Below are positions 8,725-13,055 of a stretch of 13,055 nt of DNA, one piece after another; position 1 is the stretch's first letter; each line of letters starts with the position of its first letter. This stretch comes from Candidatus Magasanikiibacteriota bacterium (GTDB lineage: Bacteria; Patescibacteriota; Patescibacteriia; Magasanikbacterales; GWA2-37-8). The stretch lies in the NCBI GenBank assembly GCA_026396535.1, contig JAPLWP010000067.1, forward strand, positions 1-13,055, given 5' to 3'. A model generated the notes under the pieces. The model searched no databases. It saw nothing but the letters and a program-made list of their open reading frames with translations, and had not been told where the DNA came from. Position numbers and translations under genes: made by a program.

Positions 8725-8753
8725 TTGACAAGTTTAAAAGGTATTGATAGAGT
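8725..8753 (+). promoter_or_regulatory. Promoter of leader peptide / tRNA-Asn unit
   Basis: A perfect -35 TTGACA (8725-8730) lies 17 bases from TAGAGT (8748-8753), which keeps the three most important -10 positions (first T, A, last T) and has an extended -10 TG at 8745-8746. Placing the last -10 base at -7 puts +1 at 8760, the A of the leader ATG. The transcript would therefore begin with its start codon. Confidence 0.65.
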
Positions 8754-8759
8754 ATATAT

Positions 8760-8807
8760 ATGAAACAGACATTTTCTACAAATAATAACAATAATAATCC
8801 TGCCTAA
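8760..8807 (+). CDS. Asn-rich leader peptide MKQTFSTNNNNNNPA
   Basis: A 15-codon ORF whose codons 8-13 are AAT AAT AAC AAT AAT AAT (8781-8798), ending at TAA 8805-8807. It sits directly upstream of mutually exclusive antiterminator and terminator stems and of the tRNA-Asn(GUU) gene, the tRNA that decodes both AAU and AAC. The ORF begins at the predicted transcription start, so it would be translated as a leaderless mRNA; no SD is present. By analogy with trp and his leaders, ribosomes would stall on the Asn run when charged tRNA-Asn is scarce. The stop codon forms the first three bases of the antiterminator 5' arm, so a ribosome that finishes would cover that arm. The peptide itself probably has no function. 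An Asn-coding run could arise by chance in AT-rich DNA; the coincidence with the tRNA identity argues against that. Confidence 0.6.
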   Translation: MKQTFSTNNNNNNPA

Positions 8808-8852
8808 GTGGGTGAGTTATTGTTGAATAGAAAAAACAAACTCCCTCACTTA
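8805..8852 (+). promoter_or_regulatory. Candidate antiterminator stem of tRNA-Asn attenuator
   Basis: TAAGTGGGTGAGTT (8805-8818) pairs with AACTCCCTCACTTA (8839-8852) with 12 Watson-Crick pairs, one G-U pair and one mismatch. Its 3' arm contains the whole left arm of the terminator apart from one base, so only one of the two stems can form. A third possible pairing joins the Asn codons (AACAATAA, 8787-8794) to TTATTGTT (8817-8824). It resembles the 1:2 hairpin of classical attenuators, though it shares only a few bases with the antiterminator. Confidence 0.6.
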
Positions 8853-8866
8853 CTGAGGGAGTTTTT
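8838..8866 (+). terminator. Attenuator terminator before tRNA-Asn
   Basis: AAACTCCCTCA (8838-8848) and TGAGGGAGTTT (8854-8864) form a perfect 11-bp stem with a CTTAC loop, running into TTTTT (8862-8866). It stands only 3 bases before the tRNA 5' end. It would stop transcripts before the tRNA unless disrupted by the antiterminator, and also ends read-through from the trpS operon. Confidence 0.8.
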
Positions 8867-8869
8867 AAT

Positions 8870-8941
8870 TCCGGGATAGTTGAGCGGTACAACGCCACGC
8901 TGTTAACGTGGATTTCGTAGGTTCGAGTCCTACTCCCGGAG
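8870..8941 (+). tRNA. tRNA-Asn(GUU)
   Basis: A complete 72-nt cloverleaf. The acceptor stem is TCCGGGA (8870-8876) with TCCCGGA (8934-8940); the D stem is GTTG/CAAC (8879-8882, 8890-8893) with GG in the loop; the anticodon stem is CCACG/CGTGG (8895-8899, 8907-8911) with loop CTGTTAA, so the anticodon GTT (8902-8904) reads Asn codons. The T stem is GTAGG/CCTAC (8917-8921, 8929-8933) around TTCGAGT. Discriminator G is at 8941. The CCA end is not encoded (GCA follows the stem) and must be added enzymatically. The GUU anticodon makes this tRNA a Tgt substrate. Confidence 0.97.
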
Positions 8942-8950
8942 CAATTGAAC

Positions 8951-8983
8951 AAAAGCAGACCAATAACGGTCTGTTTTTGTTTT
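8951..8983 (+). terminator. Intrinsic terminator of tRNA-Asn
   Basis: CAGACC (8956-8961) and GGTCTG (8968-8973), extended by AAAAG pairing with TTTTT, enclose AATAAC and are followed by a T-rich tract. It lies 9 bases after the tRNA, so tRNA-Asn forms a monocistronic unit with its leader. Confidence 0.85.
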
Positions 8984-10157: not shown

Positions 10158-10481
10158 ATGTCTCCTACACCTTTTCTTGGATTATCAGTCCTGATCCATC
10201 TCGGCATAATTTTTATAAACCGAATGCTTGGCCGCAACGGCCCAATCAAGCGTGTGCGTCTAAAAATAAATAAGCCATCAGTATCCCGGCGCATCAGTAT
10301 GGCTATAATCACGTCTGTGCTCACGGTCGTTAGTATCAGTGCCGCCCTACTAATTGATACCGCTGTTGTGGATAAGCATTCGTCGATAAGATTTATTAAT
10401 CATATCATTGCTCAAGATTTAAATCATGACACCATAAATAACTCAAATAATATTTATTCACCTCTTAATTATAAAATATGA
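10158..10481 (+). CDS. Small two-TM membrane protein coupled to the deacetylase gene
   Basis: A 107-aa protein with TM helices at about 5-21 and 46-70, joined by a basic loop (NRMLGRNGPIKRVRLKINK) that is probably cytoplasmic, and an Asn-rich C-terminal tail of about 37 residues. It begins 10 bases after the glycosyltransferase stop. Its TGA overlaps the next ATG as ATGA (10478-10481), strong evidence for a real, translationally coupled gene. I see no homology to a named family. In size, topology and position it recalls PgaD/IcaD, small two-TM partners needed by PNAG synthases; this is inference from context only. Confidence 0.65.
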   Translation: MSPTPFLGLSVLIHLGIIFINRMLGRNGPIKRVRLKINKPSVSRRISMAIITSVLTVVSISAALLIDTAVVDKHSSIRFINHIIAQDLNHDTINNSNNIYSPLNYKI

Positions 10482-13055
10482 AGAATCAGTCATCAAAATT
10501 TAAAAGTAAAATATTATCGATCTCATTAATTTTATTGTTAGTTGTTGGGATTTATTCGCCTTTAGTAAGTGCGGCAGCAGTATCAAATAATTTAATTTCT
10601 AATCCATCTTTCGAAACAACTGGCTCAGCCAGCTCCACTTTACCAGATCAGTGGACGCTAGCCGGATTTGGCACAAATGATAGGACATTTACATATCCTG
10701 TAACTGGCATAGACGGCAATGCCGCACGCGTGGATATAAGCTCTTATACAGACGGCGATGCCAAATGGGTATTTAATAATGTACCAATCACGGCCGGTCA
10801 ATCATACGCGTTTAAAGATAATTATATGGCGATAGTGCCGACTGTAATTGCTGTTCAATACACCAGCGCCAGTGGCACGACAAGTTTTGATCCAAATTTT
10901 CTGAGCGTACCCGCCTCACCAAGCGCCTGGGGTACAGCCAGTATTAATTTTACCGCTCCCTCTGGTGCAATAACGGTTACAGTTTTTCATCTGTTAAATT
11001 CCGTCGGTTCGTTAACTGTGGATAATTATAGTTTAACTTTGATTCCACCACCAACACCTTTTGACCAAGGGTTTGCTTCTTTGACATTTGACGATGGCGT
11101 GCAATCACAAATGGATAATGCAAAGCCAATTCTTGATTCCGCAGGAATGAAAGCAACTTTTTATATTGTCACTCATGCTAGCGCTGGGTTTTCGGTTCCC
11201 ACTTCATCGCCTGAATCTGTTTTAGCCGACACAATTTATATTTATAAAGATCAATATATCAGTAACGCTAATTCGCAAATTTCTGCGCAAGTCACCCTGA
11301 CAGATAATTCCGTGATAAACGCAGATGTGGTTGATAGTTCTGGAGTTACTTTGGGTTCGAGTGCTACTGTACCAGCTTCGTCATCAACACTGGCACAAGC
11401 ACAAGTAAATTTTTATATTCCACCGACAGCAAAATCCGTAGTAGTTTCACATAATCCAACTGAGGGAAATTCGTTGGTTGTTAGTAATGTGTCCTTTGGA
11501 GCGAAAGGTTATATGCCTATTCAAGACATATTAAGTTTAAAAGCCGATGGCCAAGAAATAGGTGCTCATACGCAAATACATCCAGATTTGAGCACCTTAG
11601 GCACAAACGATGCTCAATCCCAAGTTCAAGGTTCGCTCAATGAACTGTTGGCCAATGGCTTGTCACCGATGTTATCGTTTAATTATCCATACGGCAATTT
11701 TAACTCCAGCACCATACAAATCGTTCAGAACGCTGGATTTACATCAGCTCGCTCTGTGATTCCAGGTTTTAATGGTAAGAACGCCAACCCGTTTGCTTTA
11801 ACAGCTCAATCGGTTAATGCCAACACCACCTTGGATCAAGTAAAAGCATGGATTGATAGTGCTAAGACAAATAAAACATGGTTGATATTAGTGTTCCATG
11901 ATATTACTCCAACCATATCCGTCAATGATCCTTATGCATCAACTCCAACTATGATGCAAGATATTGTAAATTATCTTACCGCTAACAATGTGCCAGTTCA
12001 CACGATCAGCCAAGGAATAGATCTGTTGAATAATGTTATCCCTGCACCGGTTGTGCCACCTACACCAACGCCAACCTCTACACCAACCTCAACACCTACA
12101 CCAACTGTCATCACCAAAACGATCACTCTGTATCCTGGTTGGAATCTGATTACTGTACCGGTTGTGCCAATCAATACCACAACCAACCAAGCCATAAATT
12201 ATACTGCAGAAACATTTGGACAATTTGTAGGTGCAGATATGCTTTCTCAATGGTCGGCAGATAGTTATGCTAGTCATATTGTTGGTGTATCAACAACAGC
12301 AAACAACTTCAATATAACTTCGGGCACGGGATTCTTCATACATGTCACCAGCACCAAAAATCTATCTATTATCGGAACAGCTATTGCTCAAACAAGTCCA
12401 ACAATATCAGCAGGCTGGAACTTGCTAGGGTGGGCATCTGACACTAGTACGAATGCTGATGCTTTCGGTACGCTGATGGGTAACATCGATATTGTTTCAA
12501 CTTTCAACAATGCCAATCAGCAATGGCAGAGTCATGTCATGGGGTTGCCTTTAAACAATTTTACAATTAACCAAGGCAACAGTGTATTTATGCATCGTCT
12601 AGTTAGTACTCCTACTAGCACTCCTCCAGTTTCAACTACAAGTACTACCGCCACTACCTCTATCTCTACCACTTCTACAGCAATGAATAATGTACCTAAC
12701 AGTTCCGTTGAAGTCGCGTCGCTCATCGACGCGACTTTTCCGGATCAATGGACGTATGGTGGTTGGGGTACAAACACCGCGATATATGAATATATAAATG
12801 ATGGCCATATTGGATCGCATAGTACTAAACTTATCGTAAGCAATTATAATTCCGGTGATGCACATTGGGATTATGCACCACAATCTTTGACTCGAGGAAT
12901 GGATTATCAATTCACTGCTTGGTACAAAACCAATACCACTCCTCATGTAGTCGTTCATTATATTAAAGATAATGGCAGCGAAGATTTTTTTGGATTATCT
13001 GATCCTGAACCGGACGGAACAAATAATTGGCAAAAATATTCTGGAGTTTTCAGTG
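10478..13055 (+). CDS. Secreted modular polysaccharide deacetylase, 3' end outside window
   Basis: The frame stays open from ATG 10478 to the window edge (859 codons, no stop), so the protein is incomplete. Modules in order: signal peptide 1-32 (Lys-rich start, hydrophobic core, VSA cleavage); jelly-roll-like module about 37-190 (NLISNPSFE, PDQWT at 56-60, ending in a VDNYSLTL strand); NodB-type deacetylase about 198-520; Pro-Thr linker 527-543; a domain with two GWNL sub-repeats (Trp555, Trp647), each followed by a glycine-hydrophobic block (SGTGFFIH, NQGNSVFMH); Ser/Thr linker about 708-738; and a second jelly-roll-like copy from about 740. Deacetylase motifs are TFDDG (203-207, Asp205/Asp206), HTQIHP with His364 and His368 as metal ligands, FNYPYG (401-406) and FHD with His474. 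About 110 residues (234-343) are inserted between the first strand and the HxxxH motif. It would remove acetyl groups from a surface polymer, plausibly the product of the upstream synthase. Confidence 0.85.
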   Translation, partial: MKNQSSKFKSKILSISLILLLVVGIYSPLVSAAAVSNNLISNPSFETTGSASSTLPDQWTLAGFGTNDRTFTYPVTGIDGNAARVDISSYTDGDAKWVFNNVPITAGQSYAFKDNYMAIVPTVIAVQYTSASGTTSFDPNFLSVPASPSAWGTASINFTAPSGAITVTVFHLLNSVGSLTVDNYSLTLIPPPTPFDQGFASLTFDDGVQSQMDNAKPILDSAGMKATFYIVTHASAGFSVPTSSPESVLADTIYIYKDQYISNANSQISAQVTLTDNSVINADVVDSSGVTLGSSATVPASSSTLAQAQVNFYIPPTAKSVVVSHNPTEGNSLVVSNVSFGAKGYMPIQDILSLKADGQEIGAHTQIHPDLSTLGTNDAQSQVQGSLNELLANGLSPMLSFNYPYGNFNSSTIQIVQNAGFTSARSVIPGFNGKNANPFALTAQSVNANTTLDQVKAWIDSAKTNKTWLILVFHDITPTISVNDPYASTPTMMQDIVNYLTANNVPVHTISQGIDLLNNVIPAPVVPPTPTPTSTPTSTPTPTVITKTITLYPGWNLITVPVVPINTTTNQAINYTAETFGQFVGADMLSQWSADSYASHIVGVSTTANNFNITSGTGFFIHVTSTKNLSIIGTAIAQTSPTISAGWNLLGWASDTSTNADAFGTLMGNIDIVSTFNNANQQWQSHVMGLPLNNFTINQGNSVFMHRLVSTPTSTPPVSTTSTTATTSISTTSTAMNNVPNSSVEVASLIDATFPDQWTYGGWGTNTAIYEYINDGHIGSHSTKLIVSNYNSGDAHWDYAPQSLTRGMDYQFTAWYKTNTTPHVVVHYIKDNGSEDFFGLSDPEPDGTNNWQKYSGVFS
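12056..12106 (+). repeat. Degenerate Pro-Thr codon repeat (linker)
   Basis: CCA/CCT and ACA/ACC/ACG codons alternate with a few TCT/TCA, giving a (P-T)n and (P-T-S-T)n linker at residues 527-543 of the deacetylase. Such linkers separate domains in secreted enzymes and vary in length by slippage. Confidence 0.75.
12711..12737. repeat. Perfect 11-bp-arm hairpin inside the deacetylase ORF
   Basis: AAGTCGCGTCG (12711-12721) and CGACGCGACTT (12727-12737) flank CTCAT and run into TTTT (12735-12738). This GC-rich terminator-like hairpin sits at the border between the Ser/Thr linker and the second jelly-roll copy, in an otherwise AT-rich gene. It is read through in frame. Confidence 0.7.

Follow-up and report, generated by a model that had tools for sequence, protein, structure and literature searches.

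The tRNA-Asn locus and its leader

On the forward strand of the window (the whole stretch of DNA analysed here, 13,055 nt) a tRNA-Asn(GUU) gene is preceded by a sigma-70-type promoter, a short ORF with a run of Asn codons and two overlapping predicted hairpins, and is followed by one more hairpin with a T run, a probable terminator (Table 1). These elements, including the 15-codon ORF, its six Asn codons and the perfect 11-bp terminator stem, had been pointed out in a reading of the letters alone (the sequence-only reading), and all of them are present; the arrangement of leader and tRNA-Asn in the window is confirmed.

Table 1. Features of the leader and tRNA-Asn locus (window coordinates)
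Feature	Position	Strand	Basis
Sigma-70-type promoter: TTGACA 8725-8730, 17 nt, TAGAGT 8748-8753, TG ahead (extended -10)	8725..8753	+	10/12 matches
Leader ORF, MKQTFSTNNNNNNPA and stop, 15 codons, probably leaderless	8760..8807	+	sequence; in-frame AAYAAY over 58 leaders
Regulatory run of six Asn codons (AAT AAT AAC AAT AAT AAT), within region 1	8781..8798	+	sequence
1:2 hairpin, Asn codons 8786-8795 with 8816-8825	8786..8825	+	whole-leader fold
Antiterminator 5' arm (region 2), first base at the stop codon	8805..8818	+	fold
Antiterminator 3' arm (region 3), overlaps the left arm of the terminator	8839..8852	+	fold
Intrinsic terminator: 11-bp stem 8838-8848/8854-8864, 5-nt loop, T run 8862-8866	8838..8866	+	sequence, fold
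tRNA-Asn(GUU), type B, D arm AGTTGAGCGGTACAAC	8870..8942	+	tRNA call; Rfam 67.7 bits
Hairpin and T run 3' of tRNA-Asn (stem 8956-8973), probable terminator	8956..8982	+	sequence

The ATG of the ORF, at 8760, lies six nt past the -10 element. Promoter matches in the window as a whole numbered 34, against a mean of 39.0 in shuffles; as they are no commoner than in shuffled sequence, we dropped promoter strength alone as evidence, and the promoter call rests on conservation: among the 58 leaders described below, 50 have a promoter with at least 9 of 12 matches 5' of the ATG. The T run of the terminator consists of five T, three of them within the stem. A simple hairpin scanner listed both the terminator and the hairpin after the tRNA on the minus strand only (for the terminator, because its T run is partly inside the stem); the plus-strand reading of both hairpins is based on sequence inspection and folding. 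At the Rfam gathering thresholds the tRNA was the sole match in the leader region of the window.

Elsewhere in the window, a long open ORF with Thr/Pro-rich linkers (10478-13054) runs off the end of the window; one stretch of it is presumably polysaccharide-deacetylase-like.

Distribution among relatives

The comparison covered 57 genomes: that of the window plus 56 others from its genus, family and order. Loci of tRNA-Asn were collected by a DNA search, which gave a match in 34 of the 57 genomes, together with an anticodon-arm pattern, and the upstream regions were sorted by hand. Such a search upstream of tRNA-Asn genes of relatives, for an Asn-rich ORF followed by a terminator, had been proposed in the sequence-only reading; it found the leader 5' of a tRNA-Asn of the window's type in 34 of the 57 genomes, own included. 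The window-type tRNA-Asn itself was present in 37 genomes, with the leader in 34 and without it in three (G002, G005 and G018), and was not found by these searches in 20 of the 57. The pattern that would have spoken against attenuation, namely relatives keeping the tRNA and the terminator while losing the Asn run or the antiterminator pairing, is thus not what we saw. Two side observations concern single genomes: G051 has two copies of leader and tRNA-Asn (L206 and L207), with leader peptides two residues apart, and in G002 the controlled type of tRNA-Asn (L010) comes directly after the end of a trpS-like gene (labelled by eye), with no leader.

A wider pattern scan of named genomes required AATAATAAY together with a T run and the arm of a tRNA-Asn, but neither ORF nor frame, and returned 74 stretches. 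Thirty-nine of the 74 records were titled as Patescibacteria lineages (Magasanik-, Komeili-, Kuenen- and Dojkabacteria, Parcubacteria, 'Patescibacteria group'), and 38 of these 39 had a leader ORF: the start codon was ATG in 37 and GTG or TTG in L101, with no leader ORF in L103. Two of four records titled simply 'bacterium' had the leader (L082 and L085). On inspection, the arrangement was seen in none of the 31 records of other groups; L078, L079, L094 and L109 of these groups do have three or more clustered Asn codons in a short ORF. The leader sequences of L025 (G015, same family as the window) and L064 are identical. In a phylum-wide draw another pattern, for tRNA-Asn loci, matched only 82 of 192 genomes, and loci were kept for 30, all outside the window's class; the leader was absent from all 29 kept loci with enough upstream DNA. 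Judged from these searches, the system is common in the window's order, occurs in some other Patescibacteria lineages and is not general in the phylum. Phage carriers were dropped from consideration: the single IMG/VR match had no tRNA found within it.

Signs of translation in the leader ORF

The 58 distinct leaders used for statistics were selected for an ATG ORF with clustered Asn codons, so that statistics of the ORF are conditioned on this choice; omitted by name were 34 loci (the 31 records of other groups, L077, L124 and L103). The less conditioned tests are the pattern scan without ORF described above and the tRNA-independent search described below. All 58 leaders have a short ORF, putatively translated, with a run of cognate codons. 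The hexamer AAYAAY was found in the leader ORFs 250 times in frame and once out of frame, and the Asn runs are interrupted by whole codons of many kinds. The recurrence of the arrangement in relatives, with the Asn run in frame, is more than chance.

The distance from the -10 element to the ATG is 5-11 nt in 47 of the 50 leaders that have a clear promoter. The ATG lies, therefore, close to the expected transcription start, and the ORF is probably leaderless. The ratio AAT:AAC is 262:91 in the leaders and 128:45 in six genes of the window; given this agreement, we rejected sensing of queuosine or of codon choice. We infer that the ORF is translated, that the ribosome stalls in it and that read-through rises when charging is low.

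Competing hairpins predicted in the leader

The antiterminator arms proposed in the sequence-only reading came out of folding as well: the minimum-energy fold of 8805-8852 is their pairing (-15.1 kcal/mol, z -3.85). In the longer stretch 8760-8869 the predicted fold has the terminator formed and the Asn codons in the 1:2 hairpin, which had not been noticed before (-31 kcal/mol, z -5.33). On these predictions the layout of the window leader is four-region and trp-like. A terminator (median -11.7 kcal/mol) and a competing upstream arm, i.e. mutually exclusive antiterminator and intrinsic terminator, were predicted by folding in 58 of 58 leaders, and of the terminator's left arm a median of 86% is taken up by the antiterminator.

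To allow for chance pairing, we exchanged arms between species. The 2:3 duplex had -11.3 kcal/mol with native and -7.4 kcal/mol with swapped arms, and none of 10,000 permutations was as good; the permutation takes leaders as independent, while relatedness makes swapped arms more alike and so acts against a difference between native and swapped. The control 2:4 duplex gave -6.2 and -5.9 kcal/mol, respectively. The native 3-arm was in the best tenth of all arms in only 30 of the 58 leaders. Against dinucleotide shuffles of region 2 the 2:3 pairing had mean z -2.6 and was within the best 5% in 41 of 58 leaders, with the window's own pairing at only z -1.0. The 1:2 duplex reached -7 kcal/mol or lower in 15 of 58 leaders; native arms averaged -5.6 and swapped arms -4.75 kcal/mol, two of 10,000 permutations being as good. 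The pairing of both stems, antiterminator and terminator, is kept while the sequence changes across the 58 leaders. In equilibrium folds of whole leaders the antiterminator and the terminator prevailed equally often, 29 to 29.

Ribosome position and predicted states of the switch

The front edge of the E. coli ribosome lies ~15 nt from the first base of the P-site codon. Between the last Asn codon and the start of arm 2 the median distance is 10 nt (range 2-18); the first base of the stop codon precedes arm 2 by a median of 1 nt (from 11 before to 25 after). With the E. coli footprint, a ribosome with its A site on the last Asn codon would end about 9-10 nt beyond it, with arm 2 just free, and one with its A site on the stop codon would mask about 12 nt of arm 2. 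The spacing is consistent with the freeing and masking of region 2; with the ribosome drawn at the stop codon the terminator was favoured in 58 of 58 leaders, but once arm 4 is included and the A site occupies the last Asn codon, equilibrium folding favoured the antiterminator in only 21 of 58.

In the window leader without a ribosome the predicted terminator probability is 0.95, the result of the 1:2 hairpin. For the A site on Asn codons 1-3 the antiterminator has 0.44-0.55 and the terminator 0.21-0.33; on codon 4 the values are 0.30 and 0.48, and on codons 5-6 the terminator takes 0.89-0.92 at equilibrium. Before arm 4 is made, the antiterminator has 0.82-0.83 with the A site on codons 5-6 and 0.77-0.83 over all six Asn codons. 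On the stop codon the terminator probability is 0.90. With the equilibrium antiterminator so weak at the end of the run, the switch must use the order of folding or stalling early in the run.

The gene under proposed control

In 86 genomes of the order, a search independent of tRNA, for TATG with five Asn codons plus a T run, found 16 distinct places, 14 of them leaders, while the reversed pattern gave one match; the two places judged by eye as non-leaders are in G044 (C3) and G269 (C11). All 14 leaders precede tRNA-Asn, and not a biosynthetic or synthetase gene; in L349 the tRNA follows across an insertion of roughly 200 nt.

Palindrome-rich insertions of ~60-200 nt between terminator and tRNA-Asn were observed in L002, L005, L020, L201, L205, L208 and L349. 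Some of them open with sequence like the 5' end of tRNA-Asn, identical to that of the own gene in L002, L005 and L205; by eye, this resembles the insertion of an element into the 5' end of the tRNA.

Leaders of other tRNAs were sought as ORFs that start with ATG, are 7-26 codons long and have three cognate codons within five. None of 56 non-Asn tRNAs passed (27 in the window genome and 29 in the single-contig genome G036), and tRNA-Asn passed in both genomes. A looser listing in the window genome, restricted to ORFs, with any start and at least two cognate codons anywhere, showed short ORFs 5' of several other tRNAs. The ORF ahead of tRNA-Ile(GAT), for instance, has 12 residues, five of them Ile; that of tRNA-Ala(GGC) has nine Ala among 37 residues and seems to be the tail of a reading frame from upstream.

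In four of the 34 genomes with a leader (G012, G033, G046 and G051) the asparaginyl-tRNA synthetase gene, asnS, comes directly after leader and tRNA-Asn, and in a fifth, G049, leader and tRNA-Asn are 1.2 kb from it; in the window genome asnS is on another contig than the leader. The four adjacent loci are L227, L235, L246 and L253, with a promoter-like stretch before asnS in L227 and L235. Among 60 upstream regions of asnS fetched, none had the leader before asnS without an intervening tRNA-Asn; other short ORFs with clustered Asn codons were present in L257 (judged by eye to be the tail of a reading frame from upstream) and L238. As asnS adjoins tRNA-Asn in four of 34 genomes only, we rejected it as the real target in general. 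Checked as another alternative target, asparagine synthetase (TIGR01536) was above cut-off in 20 of the 57 genomes, the window's not among them. Charging without AsnRS was rejected too: asnS was above cut-off in 54 and gatB in 52 of the 57 genomes.

A second tRNA-Asn gene, often split by an intron

The tRNA-Asn behind the leader (type B) has a D arm of the form GTT...AAC in 55 of 58 loci; L080, L095 and L116 differ. The window genome contains a second tRNA-Asn, absent from the sequence-only reading, on contig 53; it is broken off by the contig end after the T arm; immediately 5' of it lies a promoter-like stretch, and no leader. Among the 34 leader genomes, a further tRNA-Asn gene occurs in at least 24: by hand sorting, it is intact through the anticodon in 11 and split in 13. 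These other genes showed no Asn leader in the upstream DNA examined (75-188 nt before the 13 split genes and ~105 nt for G034 and G040; a leader farther upstream is possible).

In the split genes an insert of 177-590 nt lies between the second and third anticodon bases (17 fetched, L275-L291). The joined halves were called tRNA-Asn in 17 of 17, and 14 of the 17 loci matched an Rfam group I intron model. The leader is carried by 13 of 17 genomes with the intron and by 11 of 24 with an intact gene (Fisher p 0.06, uncorrected for relatedness and sorted by hand; the table omits G049 and genomes with the tRNA but no leader). In the tRNA lists of G000 and G036, in which intron-split genes are not included, the only other anticodon present twice is CAT, in G036.

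The attenuator would thus govern an extra copy of tRNA-Asn and not the only one, and feedback would reach the pool through type B. This modifies the homeostatic loop of the sequence-only reading, by which low charged tRNA-Asn raises transcription of tRNA-Asn itself: the link between leader and tRNA-Asn stands, while the gene is not the sole source of this tRNA. One could speculate, with some doubt, that the tRNA-Asn without a leader provides the base supply and that type B, in a closed loop worked by ribosome stalling at its own codons, is a demand-driven backup switched on only when ribosomes starve for Asn-tRNA. Type B would then be induced, for example, when splicing or dilution limits the other tRNA-Asn, whose gene would often be interrupted by a self-splicing intron within the anticodon.

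Proposed mechanism and alternatives

The ORF, its codon run, the exclusive hairpins as predicted, their conservation and spacing, the link to tRNA-Asn and the second gene are what sequence and comparison demonstrate. We consider it highly probable that together they make a trp/his-type attenuator of transcription, mediated by the ribosome, through which a tRNA gene is controlled by its own codons, the model put forward in the sequence-only reading and now supported by conservation, the swap test and spacing. RNA polymerase would initiate at about the ATG, and a ribosome would load onto the leaderless 15-codon ORF and trail the polymerase. With charged Asn-tRNA scarce, the ribosome would wait at the Asn codons and leave the antiterminator 5' arm, ~10 nt past the last of them, free to capture region 3; the polymerase would then read through into tRNA-Asn. 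The output would be a second, inducible tRNA-Asn on top of the leader-free one, i.e. negative feedback on supply. An extra tRNA is no help when asparagine itself is missing.

The AAY repeat could instead be a protein-binding RNA motif, akin to the triplet repeats bound by TRAP, that switches the hairpins with translation irrelevant. The triplets are evenly spaced, and triplet spacing would keep the frame too. Against this, in 47 of 50 clear-promoter leaders the ATG that starts 5-11 nt past the -10 element is in the frame of the repeat, 38 of 39 Patescibacteria-titled records from the scan without an ORF requirement still have an in-frame start, the runs are interrupted by whole codons of various kinds, AAT and AAC occur in the ratio found in genes (262:91 and 128:45) and the distance to the antiterminator fits the edge of a ribosome. 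We regard protein binding as very unlikely.

It is very unlikely, in our estimate, that the attenuator mainly reports shortage of asparagine or of AsnRS to an operon of tRNA-Asn and asnS. Although the gene order in G012, G033, G046 and G051 agrees with such an operon, these are only four of 34 leader genomes, and in G033 and G051 asnS seems, by eye, to have a promoter-like stretch of its own; the window tRNA is followed by a hairpin and T run, with asnS on a different contig, and no leader was seen before asnS lacking the tRNA among the 60 regions fetched. A constitutive leader, in which the terminator is an ordinary one of an upstream transcript and the Asn-rich run arises by chance from AT-rich sequence, would agree with the high AT content at this place of the window, with promoter matches no more frequent than chance and with a minus-strand T run that the hairpin also has; yet recurrence, frame, spacing and the advantage of native over swapped pairing in 58 leaders, with tRNA-Asn behind all 14 leaders of the tRNA-independent search, leave it practically no credence, and it is already contradicted by conservation.

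To our knowledge, how bacteria set the levels of single tRNAs is largely an open question. The attenuator described here is a compact and conserved candidate circuit in small genomes, in which translation would meter one tRNA and adjust its transcription. If true, it would be a new use of trp-type attenuation, with a non-coding target and the sensed molecule as output, and would extend leader-peptide control to Patescibacteria by a small module that can be tested in a laboratory host.

Comparison with known systems

T-box riboswitches sense uncharged tRNA by direct base pairing. They resemble the leader in that tRNA charging is read through a choice between terminator and antiterminator, and differ in that the leader has a codon run in an ORF; the T-box was absent among the ten Rfam matches with E up to 5 in the window leader. 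Weak similarities, below gathering, were those to Phe_leader (RF01859, 26.4 bits, gathering 55) and His_leader (RF00514, 17.2 bits, gathering 49), families with a different amino acid and target.

Leader-peptide attenuators are also found before aminoacyl-tRNA synthetase genes, as in pheST. The histidine leaders of hisS/hisZ in bacilli are of this kind (PMC2965389). Like our leader, the synthetase-gene attenuators have a cognate codon run and an output that serves aminoacylation; here the output is the tRNA, in contrast, and a synthetase gene directly downstream is confined to the four asnS genomes mentioned.

Closest are the attenuators of the trp and his operons, for which a ribosome-mediated model with exclusive II:III and III:IV hairpins has been described (PMC1183508). 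The likeness extends to a short ORF with a run of regulatory codons, to the exclusive hairpins and to a stop codon set to mask region II, with I:II pairing in the window leader as well. Unlike in those operons, the target here is a tRNA and not biosynthetic genes, the sensed species is the product and the ORF seems to be leaderless. The sequence-only reading knew of no described tRNA gene under a leader peptide of its own codons, and we found none in the open-access literature (most subscription papers lie outside it). The mechanism is of the known trp/his type; what would be new is the tRNA target and the proposed closed loop.
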